A stretch of DNA of 64,000 nucleotides from Candidatus Cloacimonas acidaminovorans str. Evry (GTDB lineage: Bacteria; Cloacimonadota; Cloacimonadia; Cloacimonadales; Cloacimonadaceae): the NCBI RefSeq assembly GCF_000146065.2, contig NC_020449.1, forward strand, positions 806,001-870,000. The letters are read 5' to 3'. The notes under the pieces were generated by a model. That model did no database searches and was not told the DNA's origin. It was given only the letters and a program-made list of their open reading frames with translations. Both the position numbers and the translations under genes were made by a program. Positions 58,656 through 63,703 of the stretch are shown piece after piece. How positions within the stretch are numbered: the first letter of the stretch is position 1; every line of letters begins with the position of its first letter.

Positions 58656-58682
58656 TTAGCACTCTCACTTTTAGATTGACAA
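58656..58682. promoter_or_regulatory. CIRCE-like inverted repeat, distal
   Basis: Left arm TTAGCACTC (58656-58664) is an exact CIRCE half-site. After a 9-bp spacer the right arm reads GATTGACAA (58674-58682), matching 6 of 9 positions of GAGTGCTAA and covering the TTGACA -35 box at 58676-58681. HrcA bound here would hide the -35. Confidence 0.5.
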
Positions 58683-58702
58683 TTTTCCAAAGTTGATTAA
58701 AT
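58676..58702 (+). promoter_or_regulatory. Candidate promoter of the hrcA operon
   Basis: TTGACA (58676-58681) with TTAAAT (58697-58702) after 15 bp as a possible -10. Short spacer makes it uncertain. A start of transcription near 58710 would lie at the proximal CIRCE. Confidence 0.45.
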
Positions 58703-58712
58703 TGTCTTTAGA

Positions 58713-58739
58713 TTAGCAGTTCATACATTGGACTGCTAA
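58713..58739. promoter_or_regulatory. CIRCE operator variant, proximal
   Basis: Arms TTAGCAGTT (58713-58721) and GACTGCTAA (58731-58739) with the classic 9-bp spacer. Compared with consensus TTAGCACTC/GAGTGCTAA, position 7 is G rather than C, and the opposite arm carries the matching C, so the symmetry is kept. It lies 20 bp before the hrcA start. Confidence 0.85.
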
Positions 58740-58759
58740 GAATATAAATGGTGGAGACA

Positions 58760-59812
58760 ATGAAAAAGAATGTACTACGACTAAATGAGACCCTTAAGGC
58801 ACTGGTGGATGAATATATTATGAGTTGTGAACCGGTGTCTTCCAGGATACTGAACGAGAAGTATCTGCGTAATGTATCCTCAGCTACATTGCGTTTAGAT
58901 TTGTTGAAACTGGAAAAGATGAATCTGATTTCCCAGCCGCATACATCGGCAGGAAGGATTCCTACAATAAAAGGTTACAGGGAATATTTAAGATTGATTG
59001 AGCCGGAAATAGAAAAGATCAGATATGAAGGAATGGACTTGCTGAGAGAGATTTTAGTGCGCAACTATAAAGATACGCCCAGAGCTTTGTATTATATAAT
59101 GGAAAATTTGGCGAAGGAGACAGACCAGCTTTCTTTTGTTGCTGAACCTGAGGTCTCCAGTGGTTATTTGGCAAAGTTGGATGTATTTTCCATAGGGGAA
59201 AACAAGCTGATATTTGTGATGAGTTTGGATTCGGGTTTGGATAAAACAGTTATTTTGAAATGCGATAATGAGTTAACTGAAGCTCAACTGAAAAAATTGG
59301 TGCGTTATTTAAATGATGAATTGGCTGGTTTACAGATTTATGATATAGCTAATAGGGTTTTAGTAGAAATGCAAGAAAATGCGGATAATGGTATGATAAG
59401 CTGGTTCTTGGCTGAATTGCATAAAGCGTTTATGGAAATAAGCGATTTCTTTATTCATTATGATGGCAGCATCAATTTTTTGGAACAAAAGGAATTTGAC
59501 GATAAAGAGAATATATTGAAGTTTATGAGTTTACTGCAACGCCAGGATTTTCTCTTAAATACGATGCGCAAACATCAAAGCGATAAAGAAGTTAATGTAG
59601 TTTTGGGTGAGGATTTAGCTAAAGGCAGCTGGTTGGATTTTGCTTTAATTTATGCCAAATATGAGGTCTTTGGCATACCTGGCTATTTAGGTGTTTTAGC
59701 ACCTGTCAGAACAGAATATCGTAAGCTCATTCCTCTTATCAGGGATGTAGCTAATACTATAACAAATACAACAAAGCGCGGAATGGTCGTGCCTCAGGAG
59801 AAAAAGGAATGA
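58760..59812 (+). CDS. hrcA: Heat-inducible transcription repressor HrcA
   Basis: 350 residues from ATG 58760 (GGAG 3 bp before it, tight spacing; ATG 58748 four codons earlier is an alternative). N-terminal winged helix: LRLNETLKALVDEYIMSCEPVSSRIL and NVSSATLRLDLLKLEKMNLISQPHTSAGRIPTIKGYREYL, which is HrcA's signature. The central GAF-like part follows, and the C-terminus has VNVVLGEDLA and FGIPGYLGVLAPVRTEYRKLIPLI. Represses chaperone genes by binding CIRCE. Overlaps grpE by 4 bp. Confidence 0.93.
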   Translation: MKKNVLRLNETLKALVDEYIMSCEPVSSRILNEKYLRNVSSATLRLDLLKLEKMNLISQPHTSAGRIPTIKGYREYLRLIEPEIEKIRYEGMDLLREILVRNYKDTPRALYYIMENLAKETDQLSFVAEPEVSSGYLAKLDVFSIGENKLIFVMSLDSGLDKTVILKCDNELTEAQLKKLVRYLNDELAGLQIYDIANRVLVEMQENADNGMISWFLAELHKAFMEISDFFIHYDGSINFLEQKEFDDKENILKFMSLLQRQDFLLNTMRKHQSDKEVNVVLGEDLAKGSWLDFALIYAKYEVFGIPGYLGVLAPVRTEYRKLIPLIRDVANTITNTTKRGMVVPQEKKE

Positions 59813-60366
59813 ATAAAAAAATACCCAAAGAACCTGAATTAGAAAAAGAAGAACTAATTACAACGGAAGTTTCAGAAGAACCGAAAGCCAAGAAGATAGA
59901 GGAACTGGAAAAAGAAGTAGCGGAATGGAAAGATAAATACCTGCGCTGTATGGCTGAATTTGAGAACTTCCGCAAAAGAACAATATCCGAAAAAGCGGAG
60001 TGGATAAGATTAGCCACGCAGAAATTTGCTTTAGAAATCTGTGATGTGCTGGATAATTTTGAAAGGGCTATCCAGCAAGCAACTGAAGAAGAAAAATCCA
60101 CTCCCTTCGGAAAAGGGGTGCTGATGATTGAACAGCAACTCCGCAAAGCCCTGGAAAAAGAAGGGGTAAAAAAAATAGAAGCACTGGGAGAACCCTTCAA
60201 TCCAGAGTTTCATGAAGCCCTTGCTCATATTCCCAGTGATCAAGAAGAAAATACCGTTACTGCCATCATCCAAAATGGTTACATAATGCACGATAAAGTG
60301 TTGCGACCTGTTAGAGTGGCAGTTTCCAACGGTTCAAAAATAAATAATGAATCCCAGGAGGAATAA
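59809..60366 (+). CDS. grpE: Nucleotide exchange factor GrpE
   Basis: 185 residues. Long N-terminal coiled coil (KKIEELEKEVAEWKDKYLRCMAEFENFRKRTISEK) with the GrpE signature, then beta-domain LGEPFNPEFHEALAHIP and VTAIIQNGYIMHDKVLRPVRVAVS. Swaps ADP for ATP on DnaK. Its stop abuts the dnaK start (GGAGGAATAAATG). Confidence 0.96.
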   Translation: MNKKIPKEPELEKEELITTEVSEEPKAKKIEELEKEVAEWKDKYLRCMAEFENFRKRTISEKAEWIRLATQKFALEICDVLDNFERAIQQATEEEKSTPFGKGVLMIEQQLRKALEKEGVKKIEALGEPFNPEFHEALAHIPSDQEENTVTAIIQNGYIMHDKVLRPVRVAVSNGSKINNESQEE

Positions 60367-62325
<1,959 letters not shown>

Positions 62326-62545: not shown

Positions 62546-63703
62546 ATGGCAAAACGCGATTATTACGAAATTCTGGGTGTAGATAGAAATGCCGATGAAG
62601 CAACTATAAAAAAGGCATACCGTAAACTGGCAATGCAGTATCATCCGGATAAAAACCCGAATAATAAAGAAGCCGAAGAGAAATTCAAAGAAGCAAGTGA
62701 AGCTTATGAAGTTCTATCGGATAAAGAAAAAAGACAGATATACGATCAATACGGTCATTCCGGATTGGAGAATCAATTTGGAGGAACAGGATTCTCTTGG
62801 GAAGAATTTATGCACCGTAGCGATCTGAATGATATTTTTGGAGATGGACTGGGCAGCATTTTTGAAACAATCTTCGGAGGCGGTTTTGGAGGTAGAAATC
62901 AACGCAGTTCAAGCAGTTCTAATAGAGGGGAAGACCTGCAAATTGAACTATCTCTGTCACTTCAGGAAATTGCCAATGGTGTAGAAAAGACCATTAAAAT
63001 AGGCATTAAAGAACCCTGTGATAAATGTGGAGGAAGCGGAAGTGCAGAAGGGAAAACAGAGACCTGCCCTAACTGTAAAGGAACAGGACAGATTCGTCAA
63101 ATTCGGCAGTCACTTTTCGGAAGGATGCAAACGGTATCCGAATGCCCTACCTGTAATGGTGAAGGAAGGATAATTAAAAATAAATGCAGTAAATGTTATG
63201 GTGAAGGACGTGTTGGAACTGTTAAGGAAATACCGATTAACATTCCTCCAGGAGTTGAAGATGGACAGTATATTCGGTTCAGGGGACAGGGCAATGCAGG
63301 ACCCCGAGGAGGAAGCAGAGGAGATCTTCTTGTTCTTATTCATCAAAAAAAGGATGATCTTTTTGAACGCGAAGGAAATAACATTATTCTGGAATATCCC
63401 ATTACTGTATCTCAAGCTGTGTTAGGTGATGAAATTATTGTACCTACTTTAACCGGTTCGGTTAAAATGAAAGTTCCACCCGGAACTCAAAGTGGCAGAT
63501 TATTCCGCTTAAAAGGACAAGGTATTCAAGGTCATAATAGTTATTCCAGAGGTGATCAAATAGTGAGAACGATTGTAGTTATTCCTACAAAACTCTCCCG
63601 GGAAGAAGTAGAACTCTATAATCGCTTAAGAGAATTTGACCGGAAAAGAGACCTGAAACCAGGGAAAAGCTTTGCTGCCAAATTAAAGAGTTACTTCAGT
63701 TAA
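62546..63703 (+). CDS. dnaJ: Chaperone DnaJ (Hsp40)
   Basis: 385 residues. J domain [33 protein letters not shown] with HPD, Gly/Phe-rich region ([10 protein letters not shown]), four CxxCxGxG zinc repeats ([32 protein letters not shown]), and C-terminal substrate domain. Stimulates DnaK ATPase. Class A DnaJ, complete. Confidence 0.98.

Follow-up and report, generated by a model that had tools for sequence, protein, structure and literature searches.

The heat-shock operator CIRCE is described as highly conserved in the passages on it in PMC3842655 and PMC545781. In the HrcA/CIRCE system of the Bacillus subtilis type (TTAGCACTC-N9-GAGTGCTAA), the operator has a 9-9-9 layout with TTAGCA outer halves and lies near the transcription start, the targets are groE and hrcA-grpE-dnaK-dnaJ, and HrcA is encoded in the operon. 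Promoters with tandem CIRCE have been described before: according to the parts of the sources that describe these promoters, the dnaK promoter of Lactococcus lactis is overlain by tandem CIRCE (PMC1676014), hrcA of Lactobacillus plantarum is preceded by two CIRCE (PMC3842655), and two L. plantarum CIRCE elements start 3–4 nt past the transcription start (PMC1676014).

Here, we compare these systems with the hrcA-grpE-dnaK-dnaJ operon of Candidatus Cloacimonas acidaminovorans, which lies in a window of 64,000 nt (the whole stretch of DNA that was analysed), and with its counterparts in the order of Cloacimonas and in the outgroup families f12 and f13 of the phylum. The order is a clade-level variant of the known system. 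It shares the features of the B. subtilis type listed above and differs from it in that (i) its arms are relaxed at positions 7–8, with no C/C site found (the letters give position 7 of the two arms), (ii) its sites also stand before clpB, htpG and hsp20, and before groES and groEL separately, and (iii) the recognition helix of HrcA is altered in most of the order. Two CIRCE at a single hrcA/dnaK operon promoter are common to the order and to L. lactis and L. plantarum as portrayed in the cited passages; in the order, the distal arm and the −35 box are mostly merged, with the arm placed upstream in some genera, and the arms are non-canonical, a contrast for which Lactococcus was compared by description. 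A literature search of mostly open papers, with RegPrecise outside it, returned no paper holding at least three of the terms HrcA, CIRCE and the two shifted arms, and a search by the shifted-arm letters gave, among the matches listed, no title concerned with HrcA.

The tandem elements of the hrcA leader

The operon and the elements ahead of it are arranged in the window as follows.

58656–58682, no strand: putative distal HrcA operator (CIRCE-like, from sequence), right arm overlapping the −35 box
58676–58681, plus strand: −35 box TTGACA of the hrcA operon promoter, inside the distal right arm; kept in 59/59 two-site leaders
58698–58703, plus strand: probable −10 box TAAATT, with a 16-bp spacer; TAnnTT lies 16–17 bp past TTGACA in 56/60 order leaders
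58702–58706, plus strand: conserved TTGTC, which begins within the −10 box and extends beyond it; inverted repeat of the GACAA at the −35 box; 53/60 order leaders
58713–58739, no strand: putative proximal HrcA operator (CIRCE-like), G at position 7 of both arms
58750–58756, plus strand: probable Shine-Dalgarno sequence ggtggag (from sequence), for the start at 58760
58760–59812, plus strand: hrcA (TIGR00331, PF01628), recognition helix VSSATLRLDLLKLE
59809–60366, plus strand: grpE (PF01025)
60367–62325, plus strand: dnaK (PF00012)
62546–63703, plus strand: dnaJ (PF00226, PF01556)

Both model matches of hrcA were computed from the start at 58748 proposed by the ORF program; the true start is probably 58760, because ggtggag precedes it and the N-terminus of the relatives is MKKN.

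Re-reading the letters bears out the first-pass annotation, made from the sequence of the window, in its description of two CIRCE-like 27-mers before hrcA-grpE-dnaK-dnaJ with centres 57 bp apart (58669 and 58726), of an exact left half in the distal element whose partner arm contains TTGACA (58676–58681), and of a proximal element with G at position 7 of each arm where CIRCE has C. The distal element reads TTAGCACTC-tcactttta-GATTGACAA; its right arm, 5′ to 3′, is TTGTCAATC and departs from TTAGCACTC at 3/9 positions. The proximal element reads TTAGCAGTT-catacattg-GACTGCTAA, and its left arm carries a further change, T at position 9, which had gone unmentioned. Each element has three mismatches to CIRCE, and the proximal one has a single mismatch to TTAGCAGTC-N9-GACTGCTAA. 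The proximal element would start at about +1 to +3, since the transcription start is placed from the probable −10 box at 58698–58703.

We consider it very probable that this tandem HrcA operator controls hrcA-grpE-dnaK-dnaJ, that the operators of the order are relaxed, and that the distal arm doubles as the −35 box. Bound to the distal element, an HrcA dimer would occlude the −35 box and the DNA upstream of it, blocking RNA polymerase; a dimer bound to the proximal element would sit over the start-site region, where CIRCE is usually found. Relaxation at arm positions 7–8 would extend across the order and to all members of the regulon, with position 7 of the exact sites taken by C, G or A and never by C in both arms, and the distal right arm would be degenerate because it must also serve as the −35 box. 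The sites, their conservation, their gene context and the helix change can be read from the sequences, and from them we infer HrcA binding, repression, heat induction and GroE feedback in a Cloacimonadota bacterium. For Campylobacter jejuni HrcA, the relevant passages of PMC8533110 report DNA binding that is lost on warming and stimulated by GroE.

Leaders of hrcA were read in 69 genomes of the phylum, comprising 60 of the order (57 from nine families and three from family f10) and nine from f12 and f13; nine of 78 loci, among them the contaminant L042 of genome G037, had no match to the HrcA motif search and are left out of the leader counts, two genomes with partial HrcA (G023 and G048) were left out, and neither the leader counts nor the helix counts include family f7. 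At least two sites are present in 59/60 order leaders (56/57 in the nine families, 3/3 in f10), and a single site is present in 9/9 leaders of f12 and f13. Under a first-order Markov null, 0.0144 sites are expected per 330-bp leader at the threshold, and the probability of two or more is ~0.00014; two such CIRCE-like elements at one promoter are beyond chance. The comparison of hrcA leaders and groE operators across relatives, which had been proposed as a check, finds both tandem sites and an altered position 7 recurring across the order.

The two-site leaders form two classes. In the short class, the distal site starts exactly 20 bp before TTGACA (48/48 leaders), its left arm is perfect at seven fixed positions in 45/48, and its right arm has two to three mismatches at the seven fixed positions in 48/48. 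In 11 leaders, all from family f9, the distal site starts 34–36 bp ahead of TTGACA without overlapping it, and the right arm of the site is free of mismatches at the fixed positions (11/11). Because the right arm is intact where the distal site is clear of TTGACA, the degenerate arm looks like a compromise of operator and promoter, and this promoter-embedded half-site illustrates the trade-off between the two. The proximal site is weaker in the same 11 leaders, with two mismatches in 9/11 compared with zero or one in 9/9 other f9 leaders (Mann–Whitney P = 0.0016, uncorrected for relatedness). The best reading of these leaders is that the order mostly merges an operator arm with the −35 box and that total strength is divided between the two sites.

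Read differently, the proximal element would be the sole operator, and the distal one would owe its likeness to CIRCE to a −35 box and a conserved upstream promoter element. The poor right arm in all short-class leaders and a T-rich distal spacer conserved in family f1 agree with such an arrangement, which we nevertheless regard as improbable: the distal left arm is almost always perfect at its fixed positions and varies between C, G and A at position 7 as operators do, and the f9 leaders show the element off the −35 box with its right arm intact.

For the tandem operator, the first-pass annotation had further suggested cooperative binding of HrcA to the two sites. The site-to-site distance is 55–58 bp in 48 leaders and 70–74 bp, on a different helical face, in 11, and TTGACA lies 35–38 bp from the proximal site in all 59 two-site leaders; the inter-site spacing is therefore explained by promoter geometry. 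Fixed helical phasing of the two sites is rejected on the two distance classes. Cooperative binding is unsupported by a spacing that varies and tracks the promoter, although flexible cooperativity is still compatible with it.

A similar arrangement occurs in leaders of Clostridia MAGs (L293, L294, L295, L298, L299, L302), which have two CIRCE-like sites, the distal one with TTGAC ending the spacer. Unlike in the order, the −35 box of these MAGs, which belong to another phylum and have Asn-type HrcA, begins within the spacer and not in the right arm, and their promoter-embedded tandem operators look like an independent origin.

Position 7 across the heat-shock regulon

We scanned the genome of the window, a single contig of 2,246,820 bp in which the window spans positions 806001–870000, for further operators. 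At up to three mismatches, the whole 2.25-Mb genome holds seven CIRCE-like places and none for the reversed-pattern control, and the shifted pattern has seven matches compared with one in its control. The seven places precede six heat-shock units, namely groEL, groES-trxA, hsp20 (the Hsp20 match in this genome lies under the NCBIfam cut-offs), htpG, clpB and, with two places, hrcA. Over their 14 arms, G is the commonest letter at position 7 (G 8, C 3, A 3). The groEL operator pairs one standard arm with one shifted arm (TTAGCACTC / TTAGCAGTC) and the arms of the groES operator are TTAGCAGTC / TTAGCAAAC; a groE operator of standard sequence in the same genome, which, together with a lack of HrcA binding to the proximal element, had been named as the finding that would speak against a shifted consensus, is not what these two operators show. 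One weak shifted-type site at contig position 1990073 (L036), in a gap between recG and trxB, neighbours that were named by eye, may be chance and was given no weight because the shifted pattern also has one control match.

Across 60 genomes, including that of the window, the control gave one to three matches in 22/60 at up to three mismatches. Because the control is not always empty at this threshold, comparisons were made on the exact pattern TTAGCANNC-N9-GNNTGCTAA, for which the reversed control is zero in all 60 genomes. There are 122 exact sites, of which 94 were context-checked (85 from the order including f10, nine from f13); the other 28 comprise 15 hrcA sites of the order, two hrcA sites of the outgroup, 10 in genomes without detected HrcA and one of the G037 contaminant. 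Within 500 bp downstream of 90/94 context-checked sites lies a heat-shock gene (28 groEL, 19 hsp20, 15 htpG, 14 groES, 12 clpB, 2 hrcA). Two of the four unassigned sites precede a Pfam HSP20 ORF, and the other two (L384 and L389; 2/94) have no heat-shock neighbour. L384 is near no recognised gene, and L389:1201-1227 (genome G057) is a C/G operator 137 bp ahead of a nitroreductase gene, the one clear non-chaperone neighbour.

These sites keep the hallmarks of CIRCE, an inverted repeat spaced 9-9-9 whose outer halves are TTAGCA and which stands close to a chaperone operon promoter. None of the 85 order sites has TTAGCACTC in both arms, as none is C/C. The position-7 pairs are CG 25, AC 21, GG 17, AG 15, AA 7 and CC 0 in the order (n = 85), and CC 7 and CG 2 in f13 (n = 9); for C/C, 0/85 versus 7/9 gives a Fisher P of 3.5e-9. 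From the arm frequencies, 6.1 C/C sites are expected in 85 and none is observed (P = 0.0001); the sites come from related sequences and the counts are not independent, and after collapsing by family, gene and arm types C/C stands at 0/46 compared with 2.6 expected (P = 0.036). With the sites beyond the context check, which were counted by eye and without the C/C site of the G037 contaminant, C/C stands at 0/110 in the order and 9/11 in f12 and f13. The 60 order leaders contain 120 sites at up to three mismatches, and C/C is absent from these as well; T occurs at position 7 in three weak proximal hrcA arms among them. All nine leader sites of the outgroup are C/C.

Of the proposal that HrcA here reads a shifted consensus, one part stands, in that position 7 is non-standard across the regulon and the order. 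The change is a relaxation with loss of C/C, and G/G makes up 17/85 sites; since the two arms differ at position 7 in most order sites, the consensus of these putative operators is relaxed and not symmetrically shifted. In the groEL site of family f1, C upstream and G downstream are kept in 13/13 while the spacers are only 45% alike, so that this asymmetry looks maintained. Both htpG sites of f13 are already C/G, and tolerance of G at position 7 may therefore be older than the order. An order in which no site of the symmetric canonical form was found, beside outgroup families that keep it, offers a natural experiment on drift of a repressor-operator code, and scans for strict CIRCE would overlook its regulon.

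The same counts bear on whether the paired change in the proximal element marks an RNA stem in the 5′ leader in place of a DNA operator. The joint change of the proximal arms and the T9/G mismatch, a U-G pair in RNA, would fit a stem. The distal site, however, lies upstream of the inferred transcript, and position 7 has the same letter in both arms in only 24/85 order sites; with most sites free of covariation we reject the stem, to which we attach next to no probability.

HrcA and its recognition helix

HrcA was detected in 79/87 genomes of the phylum, in one copy each except in G037. The HrcA of the window passes the NCBIfam equivalog model TIGR00331 (210.9 bits; cut-off 197.2), on which a Clostridium-type control, the HrcA of L042, scores 313.6 bits. 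Against the DNA-binding domain model PF03444, it scores 15.4 bits (E 0.014), under the cut-off of 21, and the control lies narrowly over it (24.4 bits). Contig C61 of G037 (L042, L152) carries this Clostridium-type hrcA with a canonical CIRCE in a Cloacimonadota MAG; the contig looks like a Clostridium-type contaminant, and the second HrcA is probably not a genuine copy.

Four genomes of f1 have sites and no detected HrcA; grpE gave no match in three of them and a chance-level match in one, and the missing HrcA is likely an assembly gap. These genomes would also fit reading of the variant sites by a regulator other than HrcA, given that binding of HrcA to the sites is predicted. Such a regulator is highly unlikely in view of the retained CIRCE layout and TTAGCA outer half, the position of the sites in front of hrcA and chaperone genes, and the presence of hrcA in 48/50 genomes with G/G sites.

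HrcA, the favoured reader of the sites, differs between these lineages in its DNA-binding region. Nine families of the order lack the Asn of the SSATIRN recognition helix: helix position 50 is Ile, Leu or Met in 57/57 of their HrcAs and Asn in the remaining 26 aligned (f10 3/3, f12 and f13 9/9, other phyla 14/14). Wing position 74 is I/L/V in the same 57/57 compared with D/E in 9/9 from f12 and f13. In the HrcA tree, where outgroup branches are long (a warning of the tool), the I/L/M sequences form one clade (support 99/81), with the Asn-bearing f10 as sister. A structure search with two HrcAs found 1stz as the sole HrcA structure, which we take to be DNA-free; helix position 50 is presumably the counterpart of DtxR Gln43, a residue that we assume faces DNA bases.

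The helix data raise the possibility of re-wired specificity, in which the change from Asn to Ile or Leu, together with the wing change from Asp or Glu to Ile, co-evolved with the operators so that C/C became unfit and G and A arms preferred. The distribution of I/L/M in a single supported clade, the wing position and the lack of C/C sites in the order point this way. Against it, f10 retains Asn, yet its leaders already carry two sites and none of its four exact sites is C/C; G/G hrcA operators go with Asn HrcAs in Dehalococcoidia, Clostridia, Uhrbacteria and an acidobacterium; and some Chloroflexota genomes hold G/G and C/C sites together. Because G/G occurs with Asn elsewhere and f10 is relaxed with Asn, the helix change is not the whole cause, which weakens it as a cause of the position-7 change, and we rate re-wiring as rather doubtful. 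Only tentatively, the HrcA/CIRCE code could have changed as follows: Asn was lost in most families, canonical CIRCE became disfavoured as too tight or unread, unlike half-sites tune each promoter in a gene-specific manner, and hrcA is held by two weakened operators, one of them in the −35 box.

G/G operators beyond the phylum

At least 117 stretches in the genome collection carry an exact G/G operator, among them stretches of other phyla, so that the idea of G at position 7 as unique to Cloacimonadota is rejected. Hosts among the matches listed include Clostridia, Chloroflexota, Patescibacteria, Xanthomonadaceae and others. Of 80 G/G loci among the matches listed, two are Cloacimonadota by title and 58 precede a heat-shock gene; the other 22 include four before or at the start of rpoH and one before ftsH. 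In an evenly drawn set of Chloroflexota, 29/53 sites are C/C and 24/53 are not (letters transcribed by hand; centre genome left out; 9/41 genomes without a site). Given the Chloroflexota counts and the G/G sites in other phyla, position 7 therefore appears as a soft spot of CIRCE more widely, of which the order of Cloacimonas is an extreme case.

In Stenotrophomonas (L407, L408 and L410, site at 1201), an exact TTAGCAGTC-N9-GACTGCTAA lies 2 bp before rpoH, and in Luteimonas (L409, site at 1201) the same G/G form lies where the longest rpoH ORF begins, though the start of this gene is uncertain; the RpoH match is over the cut-off in both loci that were run (L407 and L409). On this evidence, HrcA may control the heat-shock sigma factor in Stenotrophomonas and Luteimonas. 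A CIRCE ahead of rpoH is mentioned for Geobacter sulfurreducens in the relevant passage of PMC545781. In Oribacterium (L222:3395-3421), a G/G operator lies 115 bp ahead of a gene for an FtsH-type protease.
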